Positions 2,166 to 33,389 of a stretch of DNA of 38,209 nt are shown here, one piece after another; the stretch's first letter is position 1, and the number at the start of each line of letters is the position of its first letter. The notes below the pieces were generated by a model. The model searched no databases. It was not told the origin of the DNA and saw only the letters and a list, made by a program, of their open reading frames with translations. Source of the DNA: a bacterium (GTDB lineage: Bacteria > Zixibacteria > MSB-5A5 > GN15 > FEB-12); assembly GCA_030605565.1 (NCBI GenBank), contig JAUWIB010000071.1, forward strand, positions 1 to 38,209, written 5' to 3'. The position numbers and the translations under genes are program-made.

Positions 2166-3788
2166 ATGATGACCGAGCACACTCTCATATTCATTCTGGC
2201 CTGTTTGGTCGTGCTGCTGACGCTGGTGCTGATCCGGCGCATCAGTGATGACCGCAAACGGCTGGCCGTATTACGGCGGCTGGACCTTGAGGAGTTCGCT
2301 GCTCTGTTGCAGGCCAACAGCCGTGACGGCGTGATAGGACAGGTGGCGGCCAAAGTATCGGACTTGCTCAAGCAATCGTTCGGCTGTGAACAGATTCTCT
2401 TTTTGAGAAAAAAACGAGGTCGGTTAAGGTACAATTTCAGCCACGGTCTTGCCAAGGTCGAGCGGCGCGATTTCCGATTGCCCCATACCAAGGATCTCGG
2501 CGATTGCCTGCGAGCCGATTACCTGCCGCGATGCCTCTTTCATCTCAAGACGGTCCTGCCGGCCGACGCCTATGCAACATTGGTGGAACTGGGTTTCGAT
2601 ACCTTCTTCCCAATCTACTGGCGGGAGAATCTGTACGGTGTTTACTTCATACGCAGCACTCTTTCAACGCGCGAGCACTCGTTCATGTCACTAGTGGCGA
2701 GCCTGGCCCAATCCTTGTCCGCGGCTTATCATGTCAAGTGGCATGAGTCGCGCAACGAGGACTTACGGAAGAAACTATCGACCGCCGAAACTGAAGCGCG
2801 CCGACTCCAGTCGCCGGGTTGGAGTGCTATGATGAAACTGGTCCGTCACCGCAAGCCGGAAACAATCGTCATGCAGATTGTTGAGACCCTCGTCTCCGAA
2901 CTTCAACTGGAACGCGCGGCGTGTATTCATCGGTGGAACGACGACGCATTGCGCGTTGTGACGAAGGGAACCAGCGGGGCTATCGCCTTGCCTGAGACAT
3001 TGGTGTTGGACAGCTTGATATCTAAACTCGGTGACAAAAAACACAGGCGTTTGAGCGATCTGAGGTTCACCGACGAGTCGTTGAATAAAGCCGTAAAAGC
3101 TCTGATCGATGGCGGGCTTGATTATGTCACCACCTGTTCGTTAGCTCCGCAACGCGAGGGAGTCCTGGCCTGGAGTGGTGGGGGAGATCCCTTAATCGTG
3201 TGTGATCATCTCGACTCGCTGCGCGATCACATCGGTAACCTTATCGACAATGCCGAGTCCTTCGAACGTATCGAGGAGTTGTCTTACACCGACAATCTGA
3301 CCGGTCTGGCTAATCAGCGGTATTTTCTGCGTCGTTTCGACGAGGAGATTTCCCGCGCCCAGCGGTACGGACGCAAACTGGCCTTCATTCTGTTCGACCT
3401 CGATGAACTCAAGGCAACCAATGACACTTATGGCCACCTGGCCGGTGACGCTATTCTAAGACAACTCGGCGAGATTCTTCGCAACAGTATTCGCTCCATC
3501 GACGTGGTGGCCAGGTATGGGGGAGATGAGTTTTGCGTCATTATGCCGGAGGCGGATCAGGAGACCTGTCGACGCTTCATGAAGCGTCTGCAGAATGCGA
3601 TTTCTCGGAACAGATTTCAGATCGAAAACGCCGACGAGCCGCTCAGATGCACGGTGTCGTTGGGCGGCGCCATATTCCCCGATCATGGCGATGACTCCAG
3701 GCAAATGATCCACGCTGCCGATATGGCGCTCCTGAAAGCCAAAGAGAGCGGTCGCAACAAGTCGCTGGTCTACAAGGATGTTCCGTAG
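2166..3788 (+). CDS. membrane-anchored diguanylate cyclase (GGDEF), with GAF-like sensor region
   Basis: The 540-residue protein starts with one N-terminal membrane helix (about residues 6-24). It continues with a cytoplasmic region that looks like two divergent GAF-type modules (about 45-180 and 225-360), and ends with a full GGDEF domain (about 370-535). The active-site motif is an intact GGDEF at residues 452-456 (RYGGDEF). An RSID at 443-446 fits the RxxD inhibitory site five residues upstream, so the enzyme should be active and product-inhibited. It would make cyclic di-GMP from two GTP. No EAL or HD-GYP domain is attached. It lies just before a polysaccharide export operon, where c-di-GMP commonly acts as activator. 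A weak purine stretch (GGTAAGAG) precedes the ATG; a second ATG follows directly. Confidence 0.93.
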   Translation: MMTEHTLIFILACLVVLLTLVLIRRISDDRKRLAVLRRLDLEEFAALLQANSRDGVIGQVAAKVSDLLKQSFGCEQILFLRKKRGRLRYNFSHGLAKVERRDFRLPHTKDLGDCLRADYLPRCLFHLKTVLPADAYATLVELGFDTFFPIYWRENLYGVYFIRSTLSTREHSFMSLVASLAQSLSAAYHVKWHESRNEDLRKKLSTAETEARRLQSPGWSAMMKLVRHRKPETIVMQIVETLVSELQLERAACIHRWNDDALRVVTKGTSGAIALPETLVLDSLISKLGDKKHRRLSDLRFTDESLNKAVKALIDGGLDYVTTCSLAPQREGVLAWSGGGDPLIVCDHLDSLRDHIGNLIDNAESFERIEELSYTDNLTGLANQRYFLRRFDEEISRAQRYGRKLAFILFDLDELKATNDTYGHLAGDAILRQLGEILRNSIRSIDVVARYGGDEFCVIMPEADQETCRRFMKRLQNAISRNRFQIENADEPLRCTVSLGGAIFPDHGDDSRQMIHAADMALLKAKESGRNKSLVYKDVP

Positions 3789-21351: not shown

Positions 21352-21542
21352 TTTGGCAAAAAAAACTACCAGAAACGAAGAAACTTATAGACAAGAGGGG
21401 ATTATTTGCTTTTCTTAGGCGTCGATGTTTCGTATCCTTGAGTGTCTCATAGGGTTATATTGAGAAGCGCAACATCAATACGGTGGATTGATAGTAATGA
21501 AACGGTTTGTATACAAGGAAAGTCTTCTTCAGGGAGGACTCA

Positions 21543-21827
21543 GTGACTAAAGCCGATCTAGTTGAGAGAGTGGCCGAGAAGACCGGCCTGACCAGGACGG
21601 ACGTTGCCGTAGTCGTCGACTCGTTCCTCGACACGGTCAAGAAGTCGCTTGAAGCCGGGCACGGAATAGAGATCCGTGGCTTCGGAACCTTCAAGGTTAA
21701 ACTGCGCAAAGCCAGGAAGGCTCGCAATCCGCGGACGGGTGAAGTTGTGCCGGTCCCGGATCGCAAAGTGCCGGTTTTCAAGCCGTCCAACGAGTTTAAG
21801 AACATGATAACCAAACAACCGATCTGA
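21543..21827 (+). CDS. HU/IHF-family DNA-binding protein
   Basis: The 94-residue protein matches the HU fold end to end: TKADLVERVAEKTGLTR, helix-two DSFLDTVKKSL, GFGTFKVK, the DNA-gripping arm KARNPRTGEVVPVPDRKVPVFKPS and the final helix. The Pro in the arm (RNPRTG) is the residue that kinks DNA in this family. I chose GTG 21543, which has GGAGG (21533-21537) five bases upstream. An upstream in-frame start at 21507 would add 12 unconserved residues. It is likely a nucleoid protein; HU versus IHF subtype cannot be settled here. Confidence 0.95.
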   Translation: MTKADLVERVAEKTGLTRTDVAVVVDSFLDTVKKSLEAGHGIEIRGFGTFKVKLRKARKARNPRTGEVVPVPDRKVPVFKPSNEFKNMITKQPI

Positions 21828-21853
21828 AGTCTTCAGGACTCTATGGAGGATTG

Positions 21854-21949
21854 ATGCCGAGCGGAAAAAAACGGAAGCGTCTAAAAATCAAAACCCATAA
21901 GCGCAAAAAGCGCCGGCGCGCCAACCGCCACAAGAAGAAGAAGATCTAA
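21854..21949 (+). CDS. 31-residue basic protein, COX24/AURKAIP1 (mS38)-like
   Basis: The reading frame starts MPSGKKRKRLKIKTHKRK and ends in KKKKI; more than half the residues are Lys or Arg. This matches the short bacterial proteins of the COX24/AURKAIP1 C-terminal family, whose relatives include the mitochondrial small-subunit ribosomal protein mS38. GGAGG (21845-21849) lies four bases before the ATG. It sits 26 bases after the HU gene, probably in the same transcript. A role as an accessory ribosomal or RNA-binding protein is by family analogy only. Its size makes it easy to miss in automated annotation. Confidence 0.8.
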   Translation: MPSGKKRKRLKIKTHKRKKRRRANRHKKKKI

Positions 21950-21988
21950 CCCAGGCGACTCAATCCTCCGTGAGTAGATGACTGTGCG

Positions 21989-22260
21989 CTCTGTGTTTCT
22001 CAGAAGCGACACAGGTGGGTTATTCTGCTGTCGTGTTCAGGGTTCGGTTGGCCTTTGGGCCGAACCGGTGAGATCAGATTATAGCTGCCCGCTGTAACGG
22101 CGGGTAGTTGTTTGCTTAGGTCTGCACGCCAAGATACTTCCTCAAGGCCGTCCCTTACTCGAACTGATGGGAGTGGTGAAGAAGTGGCTGTCTCTGCCCT
22201 TGTCACAGAAACAAGTTCCCCGCAGCAACCTTTCCAAACCTTTTGCGTAAGCCTAAGAAG
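21989..22260 (+). ncRNA. structured intergenic region, possible ncRNA or leader
   Basis: This part of the 340-base gap between the COX24-like gene and the triple-repeat gene has several pairing elements. GGTTCGG/CCGAACC (22041-22047 with 22060-22066) is a 7-base stem, and CCCGC/GCGGG (22088-22092 with 22100-22104) closes on TGTAACG. TGTTTCT (22 kb left edge, 21994-22000) can pair with AGAAACA (22207-22213) to enclose about 220 bases. CTTAGG (22115-22120) can pair with CCTAAG (22252-22257). A segment GCTGCCCGCTGTAA recalls the cobalamin riboswitch core, but other core boxes are missing. I see no coding sequence here. It could be a 5' leader of the next gene or an independent RNA. Confidence 0.3.
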
Positions 22261-22293
22261 AAGAAAGTAACTGTTTCGTGGAGGTGAATGATT

Positions 22294-23535
22294 ATGAGGC
22301 ATCTCTTGATATTTCCGATTGCCGCGGTACTGACATTGATGTTGGCGCTGGGCGCAATGGCGGACAGCAGCAGCCGCGTCTACGGCAAAATCACCACTGT
22401 CGATGATGACGTGTTTGAGGGACTGATCCGATGGGACAAGAACGAAGGAAGCTGGGTCGATGTCCTGAATGGCAACAAGGAGTTGCGACGGCATGATCGC
22501 TCGAAGAGAACAAAGTACCGTGACCGCGAGCGGTCCATAGAGTTGTTCGGCATTACTATCGCCAGGACCGGCGGGGCCAGCATCAGTTGGGGGAATGCAG
22601 CTCAGTCCGGAATGCGGTTCGGTCACCTGGCATCGCTGGAAGTGATCGATGATGACGCCGCGCTGCTTACCTTGAAATCCGGTGAGACGGTTGAACTTGA
22701 TGGTGGCTCCAGCGACATCGGTACCGGAGTGAGGGAGATCATCATCGAGGACCTCGACGAAGGGGAGATCGAGTTGGTCTGGGATGATATCGAGCGTATC
22801 GACTTCATGCAGGGCGAAGGGTCATTAGTCTCTAATCTCGGCGAACGACTATACGGGACGCTCACCACCCGTCGCGGCGATGAATACACCGGCTATGTCT
22901 GCTGGGACATTGACGAGCTTTTCACAAGAGACATCCTCGACGGCGACTTGAAGGGTCACAGGCGCAAGATCAGGTTCGGCAAGATCCAATCGATCGAACG
23001 CTACAGTTCCAGCGGCGCCACTGTCACGCTCAACAACGGCGATGAACTGCTCCTGCGCGGCACCAACGACGTCGACGATGACAACAGCGGCATCATTATC
23101 TCCGATGTAGGATTCGGTCAGGTCATCGTGTACTGGGACGAGTTTGACCGACTTGACTTTCACAAAGAACCGGAGCCGGTGAGATACGATCATTTCGACG
23201 GTGGACATCCGCTGAGGGGTACGGTTTTCACCGAGGACGGCGAGAGCTACGAGGGCACGATTCGATGGGATGACGACGAGGAGTACTCGTGGGAGTTGCT
23301 CGATGGCAATTACCGGGACGTCGAGTTCGACATTGAGTTCGGTCTGATTAAGGAGATCGCCAAGAAATCGTACCGGTCGTCCATCATAACGGTTTGGGAC
23401 GGTCGCACTTTCCGCCTGCGCGGTTCCAACGATGTCGACGAAGACAACAAAGGCATATTCATCACCATATCGGATGGTGAAGAGATCGAAGTCGATTGGG
23501 AGGATTTCGAGCGCGTCGAGTTTGTCCGTAAGTGA
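22294..23535 (+). CDS. exported acidic triple-repeat beta-rich protein, unknown function
   Basis: I recognise no named family. The 413-residue product has a signal peptide (MRHLLIFPIAAVLTLMLALG) and three copies of a module of about 105-145 residues (about 28-173, 185-290 and 306-410). Each begins like VYGKITTVDDDVFEGLIRWD, contains a glycine-Asp-rich LRGTNDVDDDNSGI or LRGSNDVDEDNKGI segment, and ends with a W-D-x-F-x-R-hydrophobic-(D/E)F motif (YWDEFDRLDF, DWEDFERVEF). The first copy is the most divergent, with an insertion. The Asp clusters could bind Ca2+. GGAGG (22280-22284) is nine bases from ATG 22294 but only three from ATG 22288, hence the start chosen. It is followed by a terminator-like hairpin. 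Confidence 0.8.
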   Translation: MRHLLIFPIAAVLTLMLALGAMADSSSRVYGKITTVDDDVFEGLIRWDKNEGSWVDVLNGNKELRRHDRSKRTKYRDRERSIELFGITIARTGGASISWGNAAQSGMRFGHLASLEVIDDDAALLTLKSGETVELDGGSSDIGTGVREIIIEDLDEGEIELVWDDIERIDFMQGEGSLVSNLGERLYGTLTTRRGDEYTGYVCWDIDELFTRDILDGDLKGHRRKIRFGKIQSIERYSSSGATVTLNNGDELLLRGTNDVDDDNSGIIISDVGFGQVIVYWDEFDRLDFHKEPEPVRYDHFDGGHPLRGTVFTEDGESYEGTIRWDDDEEYSWELLDGNYRDVEFDIEFGLIKEIAKKSYRSSIITVWDGRTFRLRGSNDVDEDNKGIFITISDGEEIEVDWEDFERVEFVRK

Positions 23536-23610
23536 GACTGATACCGGCTTGAAACAAACGGGTGCATGGTTGTCTTACCGCATATTCTGTGAACTGAACC
23601 AACCCAGAAG

Positions 23611-23634
23611 GCCGCCTCACCCAGGCGGTCTTTG
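23611..23634 (+). terminator. rho-independent-type terminator after the triple-repeat gene
   Basis: CCGCC (23612-23616) and GGCGG (23624-23628) form a GC stem, extended by a G-T pair, around a 7-base loop. It is followed by TCTTTGT. The T-run is short, so strength is uncertain. It lies 76 bases after the stop of the triple-repeat gene. Confidence 0.55.
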
Positions 23635-23748
23635 TAATGCGCAGCATGTTATCGCAGTTCCGTAAGAGTCAACTTATTCTGGACACGTCTCTTTGTCCAG
23701 GTGTCAACTCAAGTCCGTTCTGCGGCAGTTTGAAAAACCCTCGTAGCC

Positions 23749-23878
23749 GTCATTGCGAGGTCGCCGGCCACAAGTGGCTCTCAAGGGCGACCGTGGCAAT
23801 CTCAATTCGTTGTCAGACATGGCGCACGAGATTGCCGCGTTCCCAACGGCGCGAGTGCCTTCGGTCGCTCGCAATGAC
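23749..23878. repeat. 130-base nested palindromic repeat (dispersed MITE/REP-like)
   Basis: GTCATTGCGAG (23749-23759) is repeated inverted as CTCGCAATGAC (23868-23878). Inside it GGCAATCTC (23795-23803) is mirrored by GAGATTGCC (23828-23836), with smaller hairpins such as GTCGCC/GGGCGAC between. Elements beginning GTCATTGCGAG and containing GCAATCTC are familiar as interspersed palindromic repeats in many environmental bacterial genomes. It lies between two convergent genes and carries no plausible gene. Together with the terminator it fills the gap 23536-23946. Confidence 0.7.
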
Positions 23879-23946
23879 GTCAAGTGGGACTTCTTCAACA
23901 GGCCCTCAAATCCAGTACACGTGATGAACGTCGCCACGCGACCGTC

Positions 23947-26796
23947 TCATGCCGTTTCCAGCTTTCTGTCCAACTCTTTTCTCACGGCAACAGCCAGGAC
24001 CTTGAGAGACAGTGGTTTTCTCACAAAAGCCCCGGCGCCCATTTCGAGGGCTATCTCGACCCGATCACTCTCTGCATATCCTGAAACGATAATCGCTTTC
24101 TGCGTGGGATTGATTTCCAGTATCCTTCTATATGTCTCCGTACCGTCAATCCCCGGCTCCATCACCATATCCAGGATCAACAGATCCTGCGGGGTTTCGT
24201 TGAGGAACTCCAAAGCCCTCTCGCCGCTCTCAACGGCGCCGGCGTGATAACCGAGTTTCTCGAGCATCCTCAAGGCGACATCCCTCTGAATCTCATCGTC
24301 ATCCACAACGAGAATGCGCTCAGAACCTCCGACAATATCCTTTTCTGCCGGGGTTGTTTCCGTGACTTCACGTGTGATCGGGAAAAACATGTAGAACGAT
24401 GTCCCTTCGCCGATCGTAGTCTCCAGATCAATGTGCCCGCCATGGTCTTCAACCACAGCATTGACGATACTCAGACCCAGACCCGTACCCCTTCCTTTGT
24501 CCATCACTTTGGTTGTGAAGAAGGGATCAAATATCTTAGGCAGGACACGGTCAGGAATACCACAACCGGTATCGGAGACGGTGAGCAGGACATATTCACC
24601 TCTGGGGACACGTCCGAACCGGATAGAAGTCGTATCGGCGTAAAAGTTTTCGGTTTTGATGGTCAGGCGTCCGACATTCTTCATGGCATCCATGGCGTTG
24701 CCGACAAGGTTGGAGATTATCCTGTGGATTTGCGAGGCCCCCCCTTTCATATTCATGAGGTCCTCACTGAGTTTCGTGTCTATTACCAGGGTCTCAGGAG
24801 TCGGTTGTTTCTGGTTTATCACTTCCCGGATGACTTCATTCAGGTTCATCGGCGCCAGGTCATAATGGCCTCGTCTGCTCAGAGTGAGAAGCTGCTGATT
24901 AACATCAGCCATCCGCAGGGCAACTCTTTCCATGTCATTTAACAATTCCACGGCTGAATGATTCTCATCAAGTTCATTTCTTATGAACTCAGGATAGGCG
25001 ACCAACGGGCTTAACAGGTTGTTAAAGTCGTGGGCTATCTGGCCGGCAATCCGGCCGGCTGTTTCCAGCCGACGAGCACGGGAAACGTACTCCTGAAGCC
25101 GCTGGGCTTCCGTGACATCCCTGAATACCAGAATGACACCTATGATATTGCCGGACTGGTTGCGGATGGGCGCCCCGCTGTCGGAGAGCAGTCTTTCTGT
25201 TCCATCCTTCGCAATAAGCACGGTGTGGTTGGCCAGACCCACAATCGCACCTGACAGCATGACTTTCTCAAACGGGTTTTCACAGAATTTGCGGGTTTTC
25301 TCGTTGATAATCCTGAATACTTCGGTGAGTGGCCGACCTACTGCTTCCTTTGAGTCCCATCCGGTCAGCTCCCCGGCTACCCTGTTGAGCATGGTTATGG
25401 TGCCATTGATATCGGTGGTTATCACGGCATCGCCTATGGAGCGGAGGGTCACATCAAGGCGTTCCCTTTCAGCCGCCAGCGCCTCCTCCGCCTGTTTGCG
25501 CTCTTCTTCAAGCTCGATGCTGTGGAGGGCAAACGCGATATCTCCTGTGACCTCCAGAAACAAAGCCTGATCGTCATGGCTCTCGACCAAATCAAAAGGG
25601 GTTGCAATCGCCATAAAGCCGTAAGTCCTTTGGTCGTGTACCAGTTGACAACTCATGATATCCTGAACATCACATTGACCAAGGAGAGAGCAACTGTGAC
25701 ATTCATCAGCCTGGTTGCGCAATATCACAACCCCGGGTTGCTCCTCTGCTTCCCGGCAGCACTGGGGCAGTTCCCCCCGCTTGAGTTGTGCCACCATTGG
25801 TGAAAACGCCTCACCGAAGCCAGCCTCAGCGCACCCGTCATATTGCCCTGTTTTGTCCCTGAGTGTAATCCACGCTGTGCTGTAACCGCGCGCTTCGATA
25901 AGATCCTCACACGCCTGCTTAATCAGCTTATCACGGTCTTTTTCCCTTGTTATGAGTTGGTTAACGTTGCGGATGGCGCCAAGCACGGAGTTAAGGTGTT
26001 CTATTTTTGCTTTTGCCTTGTTGTTCTCGGTGATTTTGAGTTGAAGTTGCTCGTTTGCCCTGACTAGTTCGATGGTGCGCTCTTCAACTCGTTGTTCCAA
26101 CTCGTCGTGTGCTTTTTGCAGCGCCTCCTGCGCCCGCTTGCGCTCAGTGGTGTATCTCACAAAGAGCCTGTCCACTACCAATCCAATAACCAGGACCAAA
26201 AGTGTAATTATAAGGCTCAGTATTACCGTAAAGTTAATGTTGGCATCGTGGCTGTCGCCAACTCTGATACCAGCCGCCGATAGTGTATCAAGATGTGCTG
26301 AGGTGCATTCATCAAGCATGTCTCTAAGAGGATAGAACAGGGGGGGGCCAAACTCCTGTCTGATTTTCTCAAACAATTCATCGTTTCCAACGCCCCGGTC
26401 CTTCGCCTCAATGATTTCAGCACTTACAGCTATGAGCTTGTGCGACAAGTCGACTATCGCTTCGGCAACTCGCAGCTTTTCCGGACCAAGACCGTGCTGG
26501 AGTTCCAAATGATCTGTTGCGCCTTTTTCCAGCGCCGCCCAGTTTTCCCGTATCCACTCTTTTATTGTTTTGTTGCCTCTTTCAACATTGCCCCTTATAA
26601 TATATGTTAATGTCCACATTTTTATCTCGGTGGCATCGCATTTCATCTGGGTCATCGCGATGGCATCGGGAACAACATCGATCTCCATTTCGTGGAACAC
26701 CTCACGCACTTCCATATTGTTCAGCACGGTGATCACACAGATTGCCCATAGCAGCAGAACCACTGCCAGGAACCCCAAATTCTGTTTACATCTCAT
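23947..26796 (-). CDS. hybrid sensor histidine kinase (sensor-GAF-PAS-HisKA-HATPase-REC)
   Basis: The 949-residue membrane protein has TM1 (about 8-26), a helical periplasmic domain (about 30-185), TM2 (about 189-212) and a coiled coil (215-265). A GAF-like domain (about 270-430) follows, with a cysteine cluster (Cys346, 347, 366, 369, 375 and 383; DECHSCSLLGQC). The PAS domain is about 445-565. HisKA has the phospho-acceptor His589 in QIAHDFNNLLSP, the HATPase has the N-box NLVGNAMDA plus SDTGCGIPD and GRGTGLGLS, and the receiver has Asp876 (LLILDMVMEPG) and Lys927. All catalytic residues are present. AAAGGAAG is seven bases before the ATG. No output regulator lies beside it, so the cognate partner is unknown. 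The gene faces the triple-repeat gene convergently. Confidence 0.93.
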   Translation of the reverse strand: MRCKQNLGFLAVVLLLWAICVITVLNNMEVREVFHEMEIDVVPDAIAMTQMKCDATEIKMWTLTYIIRGNVERGNKTIKEWIRENWAALEKGATDHLELQHGLGPEKLRVAEAIVDLSHKLIAVSAEIIEAKDRGVGNDELFEKIRQEFGPPLFYPLRDMLDECTSAHLDTLSAAGIRVGDSHDANINFTVILSLIITLLVLVIGLVVDRLFVRYTTERKRAQEALQKAHDELEQRVEERTIELVRANEQLQLKITENNKAKAKIEHLNSVLGAIRNVNQLITREKDRDKLIKQACEDLIEARGYSTAWITLRDKTGQYDGCAEAGFGEAFSPMVAQLKRGELPQCCREAEEQPGVVILRNQADECHSCSLLGQCDVQDIMSCQLVHDQRTYGFMAIATPFDLVESHDDQALFLEVTGDIAFALHSIELEEERKQAEEALAAERERLDVTLRSIGDAVITTDINGTITMLNRVAGELTGWDSKEAVGRPLTEVFRIINEKTRKFCENPFEKVMLSGAIVGLANHTVLIAKDGTERLLSDSGAPIRNQSGNIIGVILVFRDVTEAQRLQEYVSRARRLETAGRIAGQIAHDFNNLLSPLVAYPEFIRNELDENHSAVELLNDMERVALRMADVNQQLLTLSRRGHYDLAPMNLNEVIREVINQKQPTPETLVIDTKLSEDLMNMKGGASQIHRIISNLVGNAMDAMKNVGRLTIKTENFYADTTSIRFGRVPRGEYVLLTVSDTGCGIPDRVLPKIFDPFFTTKVMDKGRGTGLGLSIVNAVVEDHGGHIDLETTIGEGTSFYMFFPITREVTETTPAEKDIVGGSERILVVDDDEIQRDVALRMLEKLGYHAGAVESGERALEFLNETPQDLLILDMVMEPGIDGTETYRRILEINPTQKAIIVSGYAESDRVEIALEMGAGAFVRKPLSLKVLAVAVRKELDRKLETA

Positions 26797-27004
26797 CGTA
26801 TAGCTTCCTTTACTTTCCCGATATCTGTCTTCTCTATCTGATTATCTATCTACGTTCGGCAACGGCATATCGCCGGTCTGAGTGAAAAACGTCCGCATTA
26901 TCGCACCTGACCTACTGGAAGCGATGCGATCCAGGCATATAACAAAGCCTTACTACGCCAGTATCGCAAGCTCAAAAAACCACAGAAATTCCGTCACAGC
27001 ACAC

Positions 27005-27028
27005 AAAAAACCCCGCTTCGCAGCGGGG
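27005..27028 (-). terminator. strong rho-independent terminator, minus strand
   Basis: Read on the minus strand, CCCCGC-TGCGAA-GCGGGG (27028 down to 27011) is followed by TTTTTT (27010-27005). It would stop leftward transcription coming from the IS30 relic before it reaches the histidine kinase gene. On the plus strand the T-run is absent. Confidence 0.75.
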
Positions 27029-27059
27029 CTTATCGTTGATCTACTTTGCCTGTTGGAGC

Positions 27060-27146
27060 CTACTGCAAGTCGGCCTGCTCGGCGGCGCGTAATCGGGCAA
27101 TCTCGCACCGCTCTTCAATGCCGATCTGTGTGTATTCCTGTCCCAT
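27060..27146 (-). pseudogene. IS30-family transposase N-terminal relic
   Basis: The 28-residue frame MGQEYTQIGIEERCEIARLR... ends at a TAG. It matches the typical N-terminus of IS30-family transposases (a YTQ-hydrophobic-EER-hydrophobic-I pattern leading into the HTH). The rest of the transposase, including the DDE domain, is absent, so this is a decayed fragment. Upstream on the minus strand, TTGACAAACGAAGTGCAACA resembles IS30-type terminal inverted repeat sequence. The remaining 26797-27423 interval holds only this relic, the terminator, a hairpin and no other gene that I can see. Confidence 0.6.
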
Positions 27147-27203
27147 AACAACATCTTAGTCGGGTGTTGCACTTCGTTTGTCAAGTTAGGGCATCCATCT
27201 TTT

Positions 27204-27224
27204 CCGCGTATTCGTAGTACGCGG
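27204..27224. repeat. perfect 7-base inverted repeat upstream of the kinase gene
   Basis: CCGCGTA-TTCGTAG-TACGCGG forms a GC-rich hairpin 200 bases before the kinase start and 58 bases outside the IS30 relic. There is no T-run. It could be an operator, a hairpin in the kinase leader or part of the old insertion. I see no other evidence for any of these. Confidence 0.4.
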
Positions 27225-27423
27225 CTCCTTCAACTAAAGGTTCTGCAATAACTGTTGTGACCGTCCGTGTTAGAACCCGGAGGTGAGCCTAATTGAACTA
27301 GAACCCAAAATACTCCAAGCGACTGTCTCCCTTTTGAAGTTGCTTGAGAGAAGTTGAGATTCTATCTTGATTTCATTCAAGAGAGTGGTTACAAGGTAGC
27401 CAACGAAGAGAGGTTTCGTTCCC

Positions 27424-28770
27424 ATGGCCGCAGATGACTCGCACGATGATAGAACACGTTCTTTCACCGTCCTGAGCGCAGGCACCAACATAGGTATCTA
27501 CCGGATCATCGAGAAGATCGGCGTTGGTGGTATGGGTGAGGTCTATCTGGCGGAAGACACGAGGATGAAACGCAAAGTGGCGCTGAAGTTCCTGCCGGCT
27601 CACCTGTGTCAGGACGATGACTCGAGGGCACGTTTCTACCGTGAGGCTGAGGCTACCACCAAGCTGAATCATCCTAACATCGTGACGATCTTCGGAGTTT
27701 CCGAGCACGAGGGGCGGCCTTGTTTCGCGATGGAACTAGTGACCGGCCAAACACTGGGCAGTTTGGCAAAAGCGGAACATCTCGACTTCGAGAGGATAAT
27801 CGATCTCACTCTACAAATCTGCGAAGGTCTCGCCGCAGCCCACGAGTCAGGAGTCATTCATCGGGACATCAAACCGGCAAACATCGTTGTCGACGAGAAG
27901 AACAGACTGCGCCTGCTCGATTTCGGATTGGCGGCTGCCAAGGGCACCGAGCAGCTTACCAGAACCGGCTCCACCATGGGGACGGTGCAGTACATGTCGC
28001 CCGAGCAAGTTCAGGGCAAGGGGCTTGACCACCGTTCCGACTTGTTTTCTCTGGGCGTCGTCGTCTATGGGATGATTACCGGTCGAACGCCTTTCGGCCG
28101 CGACAACGAAGCTGCTACCCTGAATGCGATCCTCCATGACGAGCCCGAGCCGCCGGCTCGCTACAAAGCCGACGTCCCCGATGAGTTACAGCGCATGGTT
28201 TCCAAGCTCCTGGAGAAAGACCCGTCAATGCGTTACCAATCTGCCCAGGGCATCATGAGTGACCTCAAGCGGATGGTCTCTCGGTCTCAGGTTTCGGTGA
28301 TGAGTCAAGGGGTCGTTCAGAGAAGACGGGGGCCGGTTTGGTTTGTCGCGGGGACTGGGCTGGTGCTGGTGGTTGCTTTGTTGTATTTGTTCATGCAGTG
28401 GATGCAGGTAACCACCACTGGCGGCAGAAAGATGCTGGCGGTTCTGCCGTTTGAGAACCTGGGGCTGGCTGAGGACGAGTATTTCGCTGATGGTATCACA
28501 GAGGAGATCCTTGTCAACCTGTCGCAACTTTCCGGGCTGGGTGTTATTTCTCGGTCCAGTACAAACAAGTACAAGGGCAGCGACAAGAGTCTGAAGCAGA
28601 TTGGAAAAGAACTCGGGGTCGACTACATTCTCATGGGCACTATACGCTGGGACAAGTCCGGCAAAGAAGAACGCCTGCGGATCAATCCAAGGCTGATACA
28701 AGTCTCTACCGACGTCGATCTCTGGGCGGATCGCTATACGGTCGTTCTCAATGACATCTTTGCCGTCTAG
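27424..28770 (+). CDS. Ser/Thr protein kinase, N-terminal part of a gene split by TAG
   Basis: The 448-residue frame contains a complete Hanks-type kinase domain (about 26-285): G-loop GVGGMGEV, Lys55 (VALKF), HRDIKPAN with Asp148, DFG 166-168, and GTVQYMSPEQ. A membrane helix follows (about 304-326). Next is a periplasmic segment of the FlgO/TolB-amino-terminal-like type (MLAVLPFENLGLAEDEYFADGITEE) that in related kinases is joined to TPR repeats. The frame ends DIFAV-TAG (28768-28770) and continues in the same frame as ASVARKVAEALDI, the expected continuation with a single codon (probably CAG) lost to TAG. The kinase half should still be functional. AGAGG lies 11 bases before the ATG. Confidence 0.88.
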   Translation: MAADDSHDDRTRSFTVLSAGTNIGIYRIIEKIGVGGMGEVYLAEDTRMKRKVALKFLPAHLCQDDDSRARFYREAEATTKLNHPNIVTIFGVSEHEGRPCFAMELVTGQTLGSLAKAEHLDFERIIDLTLQICEGLAAAHESGVIHRDIKPANIVVDEKNRLRLLDFGLAAAKGTEQLTRTGSTMGTVQYMSPEQVQGKGLDHRSDLFSLGVVVYGMITGRTPFGRDNEAATLNAILHDEPEPPARYKADVPDELQRMVSKLLEKDPSMRYQSAQGIMSDLKRMVSRSQVSVMSQGVVQRRRGPVWFVAGTGLVLVVALLYLFMQWMQVTTTGGRKMLAVLPFENLGLAEDEYFADGITEEILVNLSQLSGLGVISRSSTNKYKGSDKSLKQIGKELGVDYILMGTIRWDKSGKEERLRINPRLIQVSTDVDLWADRYTVVLNDIFAV

Positions 28771-28776
28771 GCAAGC

Positions 28777-30123
28777 GTGGCTCGCAAGGTAGCTGAGGCG
28801 CTCGACATTAGATTACCTGTAACCGAACAGGAAGCCGTGGCTCGGCAACCAACAGATGACTCTGAAGCATACGACTACTACTTGCGCGGCAATCAGTACT
28901 ATGACGTTACCCACGACGGTCTGCGAAACGCCGAAGCAATGTATAGGTCGGCTATCGAAGTTGAACCGGGTTTCGCCCTTGCATACGCGAAGTTGGGTAT
29001 GGTTCACACGCAGATGTATTGGTACTACTATGACCGATCGCTCGAACGGTTATCGGCGGCCAGGGAGGCGGTGGATAGATCCATAGAGTTTGCTCCAGAC
29101 CTTGCCGAAGCTCACTTTGCTCTGGGATGGTTCTATTATCATGGTGACAGGAACTATGAAGAAGCTTTGAAGCAGTTTGCATTAGTGGCCCGGAAGCAGC
29201 CGGGCAACGCCGACGCTCTCTATGCCACCGCCCAAGTGCAGCGACGACAGGGTAGATGGTCTTCGGCCGTAGACAACTTTAGACAGGTTGTGCTGGCCGA
29301 TCCACGCAGTGCCTGGCGAACGTCGGAGTTTGCAGGGACTCTGGTCAGCCTGCGAGAATACGCCGAGGCTGAGAAGCTCTTCGACAGGGCCATCAGCCTT
29401 GCTCCGGACCTCAAATTCGCCTTTTTCCAGAAGGCTCTCATGTGCCTGGTACGGGACGGTCATACAGAGAATGCACGACAGGTGATCGCCGCCGCCCTAA
29501 GGACTAACGAACGTTGGGCCGAAATAGCCTATCTTGAGATCATACTTGACATGGTTGACAGTGACTACGATCACGCTTTGGAGTTCTTGTCCTCGGCCGG
29601 AGGGTCATCGGCTATGATCGCTACCGGAACGGCCGAATACTATCTTCAGAAAGGCGACATCTATCGCCATCAGGGTTTTGCAGGCTATCGTCACTATTAT
29701 GATTCAGCCATCGCTGTGCTTCAGGATCAAATCACATTGGGGGCCGACCAGTATCCACACTACTTGCACGTTTTCCTCGGGAAGGCTTATGCAGGTTCGG
29801 GTCAGAAAGAAGATGCTATCCGAGAGGGCTTGCTGGCCGTAGAATGCCTTCCGGTCTCTGAAGATGCCTTCGTGGGACCTGATCTTGTTGCCGTATTGGC
29901 CGAGATATATAGCCTCGTGGGAGAACATGATCTGGCCATAGATCAATTGGAGTATCTGCTGTCGATCCCGTCATGGACTTCGGCGTCGCATGTCGCCACC
30001 TGGCCGGAGAATGGCCGCCGGGCTTTGCGGCAGCGAGTACATGCTGCCCGGTCTACTTGCAGCCTTTATTTCAGAAGCACCATTTTGCGGGTTTCGGTGA
30101 TGTTTCCGGCGGTGAGACGGTAA
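28777..30123 (+). CDS. TPR part of the split kinase gene, altered C-terminus
   Basis: This frame is the in-phase continuation of the kinase gene after the TAG at 28768-28770. It opens with VARKVAEALDI, then contains TPR units of the kind that follow FlgO-like segments in such kinases (YYLRGNQYYDVTHDGLRNAEAMYRSAIEVEP, about 35-65 onward in sections, to LVGEHDLAIDQLEYLLSIPSW). A GTG at 28777 could start independent translation, but no good ribosome site is visible, so this is probably part of a nonsense-disrupted gene. The last about 45 codons (after SIPSW) do not look like the usual C-terminus and run 58 bases into the convergent C25 gene, suggesting a second lesion or rearrangement. It encodes protein-protein interaction repeats. 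Confidence 0.72.
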   Translation: MARKVAEALDIRLPVTEQEAVARQPTDDSEAYDYYLRGNQYYDVTHDGLRNAEAMYRSAIEVEPGFALAYAKLGMVHTQMYWYYYDRSLERLSAAREAVDRSIEFAPDLAEAHFALGWFYYHGDRNYEEALKQFALVARKQPGNADALYATAQVQRRQGRWSSAVDNFRQVVLADPRSAWRTSEFAGTLVSLREYAEAEKLFDRAISLAPDLKFAFFQKALMCLVRDGHTENARQVIAAALRTNERWAEIAYLEIILDMVDSDYDHALEFLSSAGGSSAMIATGTAEYYLQKGDIYRHQGFAGYRHYYDSAIAVLQDQITLGADQYPHYLHVFLGKAYAGSGQKEDAIREGLLAVECLPVSEDAFVGPDLVAVLAEIYSLVGEHDLAIDQLEYLLSIPSWTSASHVATWPENGRRALRQRVHAARSTCSLYFRSTILRVSVMFPAVRR

Positions 30124-33100
30124 AAATATACGCCGCTTGCCGCTTGCGATCCATCCCACTCAAAGGAGTGCGTACCGGCATTGAGGCGACGGCCAACCAA
30201 CTTCGTCACCCGCTGCCCCATGATGTTGAACACCTCCAGCATGACATCCGCTGCTTCTGGCAAGCTGAAACTGATCGCAGTCCTGGGGTTGCACGGGTTG
30301 GGGTAGTTCTGGTTGACGATCAAGTCGTCCTTGTTTGCCGGACCACCGTCACGATGGAGATGCGGCTGATAATACCCCACCAGCTTCAGAACAAGTTTCA
30401 CATTGTCGAGGTTAACAAGACGCGAACTGGAGAAACTGAGGTCAATCCTATTGCGCGGTCTCAGGCGATAGTAAGTGCCGCTGTTCTCCAGCAGGAATGA
30501 AACGTCTGCATGTTCGTTGTCAACTGCACCAGTCAATGGAAACTCTCCGAGCTTCGGCAGTGCCCGGGATGAGAAGAAGGCAAACTGATCAATCCGGTAA
30601 TCGCGCTCCCATGACAGTCGCACCACGAACCAATTGTGATTATCGGCCGTTATGAAGTCCGTGAAATCGACCAGCGTCGGAAGACTTGCCCTCACTCTGG
30701 GGAACACGGAGCCGATGTACTCGTGATTGCCGTCGTAATCATATAACTCAACGGTCAGTATGTTGCCGACGACAGCTTCCTCGGTGGCCTTGGGGATAAA
30801 GGGATCCTTGCCCGGCGGATCGATTATGGTACCACCGCCCGGTATGTCGCTCGCCTTGCCGGCCCCTTGACCCGGGAAGAAACTCCCCAGGTCAAATCCT
30901 GCGATCAATTCTCCCTTGACCCTCGTATCATAATACAAGTCGTCCTTGTCTCGAACCTTTTCGAGGATGTCGTAACCGTTGCCGTTGACAGCAAACAGTG
31001 GCGTGATCGGTGCACTCATGGCGACCAGATTGCCGGAACCGCTTATGGCGAGACGTTCTCGCGTTTGGAGCCCCGACACATCGTAGGCGATCAGGTGGGC
31101 TTGGTAGAGGTATGTTTCCTTTTGATAGTCTTCAGCTATGCGGAGTCTCACCTTGCCGTCGACGACATCGGGCACGTGCTCAAGCGGATACCAGTCGACC
31201 GTGATCTTCGATGGTCTATCAGCCTGTTCCGACCCGGTTAACACGACGTTTTCCAGTTGGTACTCTCCTCCCGAGAGAACATACACGAAAGGACACCCCG
31301 GCTCTTCCGGATCGCGCGTGATCAAGATGTTCTTCTGCCGGATTTCATCATGTCCACCCAAATCATATACGGTCGCCTCTATGTGAGCAAGGGCATTGTA
31401 GTCCGGTGCATGATAGGTTACCTCCCGGCCGGAGCCGCTGAAGTAACCGTAGTCAACGGACCACTCATACGACAGCGTGTCACCTCTATTGGCATCATCA
31501 TCCACGGCATCGACGGACACTGTTGTTGATGTCCCCTTCACCATTTCGTCCACCGCGTCAATCTCGGACACGTACGGCTCATAACCCCAGGTCGGCGTGA
31601 ACTTGATATCTGATAATACAAAGGCGAAGCGTCCGGTCGACTCCGGAGAAACAGCATCATATTCAACAATCAGCTTATCCAGAGTCCCCCCGTCCAGTGC
31701 TTCCAGATCGAAGAAGTACTGTTGCCACCATAGCGTATCCACCCTGCGGCGGGACGCACCTACCCGATCACCGTACTGATCGGTGATACATGTTGATGCG
31801 GTACTGTCGGACAACCAATCCTCGTTGTCCAGAATTCCGTTGACACCCACGCGCCCGATGCCGTCGGGATGATCGTATAGTCTGACCGCATACTGCATGA
31901 ATCGTGTGGAATCCGTCATCTCCAGCCCCAGATCATCATACAGCAGCCAACTCTGGTAAGCTGAATCGGATGCGTGGTAACCGTCTGTACCCGCAACGCG
32001 ATAGAGGTGTCGCCGTCCATCGAGACCAGCCACCGTAGAAAGGTAGGCGCTGTCCGATGTAATCTGGGTGTTGCTGCTGTATTCGTTGTCCTCGTAGGGC
32101 AGCGGACTACCGAATTCATAATCGAACTTGGTTTGCTGCTGGTTCGACAACCCCGGCGAGTTGAGACTCAATGACGGATCACCATATAGGGTATACTGCA
32201 TGAGTGTTTCGTGATCCGTAGGCCGGAACCAAAGCACTCCTTCATGCTTGGCCGCCGTGAACAACTCGCCGATGCTGAGGTTCGGGTACTTCCAGAGCAG
32301 ATAGTTGAAGAATCCGAGAAAGAGGTTATTATCGAATTGGATTGAGGAGCCGGACGGGCCCACATACACTATGGCCCCTCGATGCGGAGCCAGCAGGAAG
32401 TTCTCGGGCCAAATCCGATGTATGGTACTGTCCATATACTCATGGGCACTGTTGCCCAGGAAACAACTGGCCGCCAGCATGACAGAGTACTTATCATTGG
32501 CGGCCAGGTCATCGGTTGCATCGAATTTATCGCCGTCACCCAGCCCGAGAATATCCCCGAAGTTCCAGGAGTTGGCTCCCGTAGCCATGGCATAGACAAC
32601 CGCCTTGCCGCTGTCGAGTGCAGCGATGACCGCATCTTGTCGATCCTGCGCCGAGTCGTAGTCAGTATACTTCATCATTGAGGTGTCGAAGGAAGATGCC
32701 GCTGCACCAAGAAGATAAGTGAACTCGGTCACGATCTCCTCACGGGGCGGATGGTGGGTTTCCGGCCAGCCCAGGTCCTTGTCACCGCAAATGGCATAAA
32801 GATCGTTCTTCCAGTCGACCGAAGCGGTGTCACTGTAATAATATTGCAGTTTATCTACGTAAACGCGTAAATCAAACGTGTCCTTAGCCGGAATTCGTCC
32901 CAGCACCAGGTCAGGCCAGGAGTGTCGTTCATAGAATCGTCCCATATAGGCGGTATCTACAATAGTGTAATCATGGTCGTACTGGACTCGGGCGCCATAG
33001 CTGTCGTAGCGAAAGAAGGTTGGAACCAGATTTCCTTCAGACGCATCAGCGTAGCAATCATCGCACTGTGCTATATCCCCAAACCACCGAGAGGTGCCGA

Positions 33101-33389
33101 CCAACACAACGTACCTGAGATAGTGTTGATGGTATGTGTTGGCAATGATCGTCTTGACCGAATCGTTGCTGACACCATCTGTAATCGCATATGTTAACAC
33201 ATCGAAGCCACGGTCTTCTTCAAAAGATACCAGGTCATCCAGCGCCGCTCCCGACAGAGTTGAATGGTAGACGATAAGGTAACGGCCGGAACCGGCAGAT
33301 ACGCTGAGACAAAGCAAGATGCTCATAGCCAGCAGGCCGACGAATCCTCGCCGCCGTCGTTTGTTCTTTGTAGGTTTCGTATTTAACAT
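30066..33389 (-). CDS. secreted gingipain-like C25 family protein with T9SS-type sorting tail
   Basis: The 1107-residue protein has a basic N-terminus and signal peptide (about 1-34). A peptidase C25 region (about 36-410) includes VVLVGTSRW, LVLGRIPAKD, the Cys309 motif AASCFLGNS and the closing LYGDPSLSL. Beta-sandwich modules follow (about 430-1010), and the sorting domain (about 1020-1107) has QNYPNPCNPRTAISF and ends TRKMVLLK. At the position where C25 enzymes carry the catalytic GHGS, this protein reads MATGANSW, with Thr270 in place of the His. It may be a pseudo-enzyme or use another His. It is the last gene of a three-gene minus-strand operon and runs 58 bases past the end of the convergent kinase-TPR frame. 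Confidence 0.85.
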   Translation of the reverse strand: MLNTKPTKNKRRRRGFVGLLAMSILLCLSVSAGSGRYLIVYHSTLSGAALDDLVSFEEDRGFDVLTYAITDGVSNDSVKTIIANTYHQHYLRYVVLVGTSRWFGDIAQCDDCYADASEGNLVPTFFRYDSYGARVQYDHDYTIVDTAYMGRFYERHSWPDLVLGRIPAKDTFDLRVYVDKLQYYYSDTASVDWKNDLYAICGDKDLGWPETHHPPREEIVTEFTYLLGAAASSFDTSMMKYTDYDSAQDRQDAVIAALDSGKAVVYAMATGANSWNFGDILGLGDGDKFDATDDLAANDKYSVMLAASCFLGNSAHEYMDSTIHRIWPENFLLAPHRGAIVYVGPSGSSIQFDNNLFLGFFNYLLWKYPNLSIGELFTAAKHEGVLWFRPTDHETLMQYTLYGDPSLSLNSPGLSNQQQTKFDYEFGSPLPYEDNEYSSNTQITSDSAYLSTVAGLDGRRHLYRVAGTDGYHASDSAYQSWLLYDDLGLEMTDSTRFMQYAVRLYDHPDGIGRVGVNGILDNEDWLSDSTASTCITDQYGDRVGASRRRVDTLWWQQYFFDLEALDGGTLDKLIVEYDAVSPESTGRFAFVLSDIKFTPTWGYEPYVSEIDAVDEMVKGTSTTVSVDAVDDDANRGDTLSYEWSVDYGYFSGSGREVTYHAPDYNALAHIEATVYDLGGHDEIRQKNILITRDPEEPGCPFVYVLSGGEYQLENVVLTGSEQADRPSKITVDWYPLEHVPDVVDGKVRLRIAEDYQKETYLYQAHLIAYDVSGLQTRERLAISGSGNLVAMSAPITPLFAVNGNGYDILEKVRDKDDLYYDTRVKGELIAGFDLGSFFPGQGAGKASDIPGGGTIIDPPGKDPFIPKATEEAVVGNILTVELYDYDGNHEYIGSVFPRVRASLPTLVDFTDFITADNHNWFVVRLSWERDYRIDQFAFFSSRALPKLGEFPLTGAVDNEHADVSFLLENSGTYYRLRPRNRIDLSFSSSRLVNLDNVKLVLKLVGYYQPHLHRDGGPANKDDLIVNQNYPNPCNPRTAISFSLPEAADVMLEVFNIMGQRVTKLVGRRLNAGTHSFEWDGSQAASGVYFYRLTAGNITETRKMVLLK

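Follow-up and report, generated by a model that had tools for sequence, protein, structure and literature searches.

A Ser/Thr kinase-TPR gene in the window, the whole stretch of 38,209 nucleotides analysed here, is interrupted by an in-frame TAG and has also lost its 3' end, and we judge it to be a young pseudogene with a probability of about 0.75. According to this reading, a once intact gene of about 885 codons would have been damaged twice in this lineage. A C-to-T change would have made a TAG of Gln codon 449, which is constant in the family, and near 30013 a rearrangement or deletion would have cost the gene its last 22 codons and fused it to the 3' end of its convergent neighbour. Termination by RF1 is expected at the UAG, which would yield a 448-residue kinase with a membrane stub and without the TPR half. 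The direction and order of the lesions, the lack of function and termination in the cell are points that we infer. This is thus most likely an ordinary gene in decay. The parts of the gene are the following, with L016 standing for the closest orthologue:

27189..27423, plus strand: upstream region common to the orthologue and start of the alignable block (L016 2931-5755 corresponds to window 27189-30013, 94.4%, gapless).
27424..28770, plus strand: 5' open frame of 448 aa, closed by the TAG, with the Ser/Thr kinase domain at aa 26-275.
28768..28770, plus strand: in-frame TAG, codon 449; CAG (Gln) in the aligned orthologue.
28771..30012, plus strand: severed TPR part in the same frame, homologous to orthologue aa 450-863.
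28777..28779, plus strand: GTG, candidate restart codon, 6 bases beyond the last base of the TAG.
30013..30123, plus strand: unrelated replacement tail of 36 codons and TAA; in the orthologue, 22 different codons and the stop occupy this place.

The sequence-only reading had reported an in-frame TAG at 28768-28770, and this is indeed codon 449 of the plus-strand frame opened by the ATG at 27424, which contains only one more stop, codon 900, along 27424-30123. Both sides of the TAG are homologous, in the same frame, to the Ser/Thr kinase-TPR family. Over the 414 homologous codons that follow the TAG this frame has no stop, while the other two frames have 12 and 24, and the chance of such a stop-free run from base composition alone is around 2e-8. 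The 5' part matches PF00069 over residues 26-275 (E 9.7e-55), shows by eye a hydrophobic stretch at about aa 310-335 and ends in a putative TolB/FlgO-like region; Pfam has no family for 28420-28767. The 3' part is TPR and, being situated behind the TAG, leaves the TPR half outside any one continuous protein with the kinase. TAG had also been said to terminate other genes of the window, at 3788, 4902 and 8355, and it does: among 24 window genes picked by hand for the count, 4 end in TAG, 14 in TGA and 6 in TAA.

Comparison with relatives supports the idea that the stop replaced a Gln codon by a single change. L016 (contig JAUWMW010000133.1 of isolate CSMAG_2408, identical to G004:C107), the only close orthologue found, has CAG in this place within a single unbroken gene of 885 aa and aligns to window 27189-30013 with 94.4% DNA identity over 2,825 bases without gaps. 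Gln occupies the column of the TAG in all 79 distinct loci obtained from the contigs of relatives (best 80 of 162), and in all 64 rows of the family alignment other than the window and L016. When paralogues from the genus and from the own genome are added, Gln is found in 86 of the 96 covered loci (3 of the 99 loci do not reach the column, and some loci are the same gene fetched twice), and the other 10, all distant paralogues, have K (5), V (4) or M (1). Since the closest orthologue has CAG in what is the same gene up to 30013, and Gln is found in 79/79 loci, one change from Gln to stop accounts for the TAG, as had been proposed; it does not account for the state of the whole gene, whose 3' end is lost. 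The number of matching genes per genome of the genus ranges from 2 to 14.

The second lesion lies at 30013, where homology to the orthologue stops. The last 22 orthologue codons are missing from the window gene, and beyond this point the orthologue continues for those 22 codons to its stop, whereas the window frame continues for 36 unrelated codons to the TAA at 30121-30123, with a tail that overlaps the minus-strand gene 30066-33389 at its 3' end. The claim that the two sides of the TAG are family-continuous consequently holds up to about 30013 and fails after it. The orthologue tail with its downstream DNA (L016:5700-6607) has no match in the own genome (96% complete, 152 contigs) except at this one place. 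Repeats able to cause the junction were sought in 23500-30200, and only short imperfect ones were found. When the downstream flank was compared with the six other genomes of the genus, the kinase tail itself was matched in G004 (118 bases, 93%); all other matches are short, and most of them fall in the 3' end of the 30066-33389 gene.

This second lesion argues against the first alternative, in which codon 449 is undamaged and the TAG comes from a wrong base call or consensus in the draft. The assembly is in 152 contigs and a single base separates the TAG from the orthologue's codon, but the damage at the 3' end is not explained by a base error. Were the join at 30013 itself an artefactual chimera, the true tail should turn up somewhere else in the genome, which is 96% complete, and a search for it gave nothing. 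We therefore regard an error at codon 449 as unlikely and, because the 3' end is lost too, favour mutation among the three origins (mutation, sequencing error, readthrough) that had been suggested at the outset.

Selection on the two halves was assessed against L016. The two parts have a dN/dS of 0.196 (before the TAG) and 0.167 (after it) and the whole gene one of 0.182, with a dS of 0.16. These low values on both sides indicate that most of the divergence arose under selection, so that either the lesions are recent or one or both pieces still serve, and they argue against long decay; we read them as pointing to a recent break, with a working pair of pieces as the other possible reading. Relaxed selection in the window gene is only suggested by the profile and outgroup tests. 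At the 51 differences between the window and L016 the family-profile score is worse in the window (sum -36.8 bits, sign-permutation p 0.06; by part, 0.22 before the TAG and 0.08 after it), and near outgroups place 8 changes on the window side against 5 on that of L016 before the TAG, and 8 against 4 after it. The rarer residue of the family is held more often by L016 before the TAG (16, against 13 in the window) and more often by the window after it (14, against 8 in L016). Unusual residues of the window gene include I25 (mostly H in the family), C100 (F/Y), P465 and S792 (both mostly L).

Similar purifying selection on both halves would also be expected if the gene had been split into two working proteins, a membrane kinase of 448 aa and a TPR protein whose synthesis begins anew, by translational coupling, at GTG 28777, a codon that lies 6 bases beyond the TAG and has an AGG upstream. 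However, the context of this restart is the same in the intact orthologue save for the changed codon, which means that the GTG is not an adaptation to the break, and the TPR half has lost its own C-terminal end: the end region is incomplete, as the match to TPR_END_plus is below the cut-off and spans only profile positions 5-23 of 56. Two functional products are accordingly, in our estimation, quite improbable, more so than an error in the draft.

The remaining alternative is readthrough of the UAG to give two isoforms, whether through a suppressor tRNA, reassignment of the code or a programmed signal. RF1 is present in the own genome (prfA, 496.5 bits, above the cut-off), and none of the 36 tRNA genes found with the Rfam tRNA model has a CTA anticodon as assigned by ARAGORN, in a tRNA set that is incomplete and has no gene labelled Tyr, Asp or Ile. 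Code reassignment was rejected on these two grounds, in line with the earlier statement that the code is not generally reassigned, and the search for an amber suppressor tRNA among these genes gave none. The genome encodes SelB and a tRNA-Sec with the anticodon TCA, and its recoding machinery is therefore one for UGA; a tRNA-Sec decoding UAG, a possibility known from the literature, is thereby discarded. Structure-driven readthrough was rejected as well, since RNA around the stop (28740-28840) folds no better than shuffled sequences (z-score 0.25). Nothing in the window reaches an Rfam gathering score, and it contains no tRNA. Although the frame stays open before and after the TAG, the species can recode UGA and the tRNA set found is incomplete, readthrough is scarcely credible given this RF1, the missing CTA anticodon, the TCA anticodon of tRNA-Sec, the lack of RNA structure, the absence of any stop in the column of codon 449 in the 96 covered homologous loci, and a product that would finish in 36 unrelated residues. 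Separately, a release-factor match under the prfA cut-off at G000:C125:15999-17039 carries one in-frame TGA, and we presume that it is perhaps RF2 with its well-known frameshift site.

The surroundings of the gene present further irregularities. The 3' end of the minus-strand gene 30066-33389, at 30066-30317, has many partial DNA matches in the own genome and in those of the genus, and thus encodes a common C-terminal tail, perhaps a sorting signal. Upstream, a block with a sensor histidine-kinase gene at about 23640-27188 is unmatched in L016, where roughly 510 other bases lie between the same neighbours, and parts of this block are found at 84-94% identity on a single contig, G006:C219. Dispersed repeats flank the block at 23730-23909 and 26806-27204, with at least dozens of matches to the first and at least about 14 to the second among the matches listed for the own and genus genomes; these repeats may be mobile or recombinogenic. 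Between the window (21507-23535) and L016 the dS is very uneven among neighbouring genes, 0.013 for a 106-aa gene and 0.41 for a 415-aa gene against 0.16 for the kinase, perhaps a sign of recombination between species.

The survey of the family brought up a different kind of in-frame stop. Five of the 96 covered loci contain a stop inside the match, in every case TGA, within CHW-TGA-GP in four of them and CSP-TGA-HS in the fifth. Profiles of TGA members were then searched in 54 genomes of the family and subsequently in 132 of the phylum, and this last search gave 98 matches in 56 genomes at E 1e-20. TGA is carried by 22 of the 98, in 16 genomes (G003, G008, G010, G027, G028, G029, G031, G046, G048, G057, G064, G065, G069, G070, G091 and G098), and the 21 best matches are all TGA-bearing; L079:4773, L082:6438 and L085:4656 belong to the TGA group. 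The context is C[HF]WU[GS]P in 21 of the 22 and CSPU in the other one. No Cys was seen at the TGA position in the non-TGA members inspected, which have other residues there, for example KDAxxGP, and at E 1e-20 the genome from which the window comes is without a TGA member. One of the 22 also has a TAG: in L253 (G098:C41) it lies at a variable position, 36 codons beyond the TGA of the first gene, with homology continuing past it, and is another sporadic nonsense codon in the kinase-TPR family. The TAA, TAG and TGA flagged in G004:C355, G019:C1 and G041:C77 look like ordinary terminal stops.

Judging from these alignments, the kinase-TPR family is highly likely to hold a selenoprotein clade, with a TGA-encoded C-[HF]-W-Sec-[GS]-P motif in the last TPR region and a downstream hairpin as SECIS. 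tRNA-Sec scores above the cut-off in 43 of the 54 family genomes, including 8 of the 9 with a TGA kinase (it is absent from G031, 86% complete); since it is also found in 35 of the 45 genomes without a TGA kinase, this shows that the machinery is present and not a special link. In 15 distinct TGA genes a hairpin of 6 bp, its loop being GGUC or GGGC, lies 3' of the TGA, and in 14 of these 15 aligned genes this small conserved hairpin (GGUCAU-GGUC-AUGGCC) follows 14 bases past the first base of the TGA. All 90 of its 90 cells pair, against at most 62% in slid versions. Covariation amounts to one pair changed on both sides (2 sequences) and one changed on a single side. Among 500 shuffles, 16 equal or exceed its covariation score, and 192 do so for the numbers of changed pairs and of pair types. 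The helix was proposed on the same 15 sequences and 4 of its 6 pairs never vary, so these statistics are support rather than proof. Frozen codons are seen too, with Val encoded by GTC in 14/14 and 11/11 cases at two places. Outside these 15 genes are the second G098 gene, which has a different but foldable sequence after the TGA, and the other six. From the motif, our guess would be that the Sec kinases are redox- or metal-sensing receptor kinases.

This group is probably unrecorded. A selenoprotein inventory of 2026 (PMC13188914) comprises 119 families by its own count, and its main text contains neither "tetratricopeptide" nor "TPR" and uses "kinase" for PSTK only; the group was not found in it. 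The consulted text of the deep-Sep paper (PMC12013277) and of a review (PMC9312934) gives the same picture for these words, and among the papers listed for selenoproteins together with Zixibacteria, new families, TPR and kinase, or LCP-89, a set that most subscription papers fall outside, none describes such a protein by title or abstract. Searches of NCBIfam with two full-length TGA proteins returned kinase and TPR models, with no selenoprotein model among the best 25 of 36 and the best 25 of 31 matches, and a 246-aa C-terminal piece gave 3 matches, none of them to a selenoprotein model.

Placed beside known systems, the TAG itself is of little weight, as it shows a large kinase family in the course of losing one of its copies. 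The window copy shares with the L016 gene its kinase domain, its frame and the identity already described, but has TAG for CAG and lacks the last 22 codons. Bacterial pseudogenes arising by nonsense mutation are a known phenomenon, and the window gene resembles them in combining a premature stop and 3' truncation in one copy with an intact copy in a relative; it differs in that its sequence is still well kept on both sides, which suggests that it is young. It also carries a warning: when an in-frame stop appears in a draft genome, the far end of the gene should be inspected as well. With UGA-decoding selenoproteins the likeness lies in its relatives of the kinase family, whose conserved in-frame stop is very probably decoded; their TGA, however, sits at CxxU near the C-terminus with a hairpin, whereas the window gene reads EDAFVGP there and has its TAG elsewhere. 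It is this different stop, TGA, conserved at one position over many genera beside CxxU and a hairpin, that would, if the assignment is true, place selenocysteine within the TPR half of bacterial signalling kinases.
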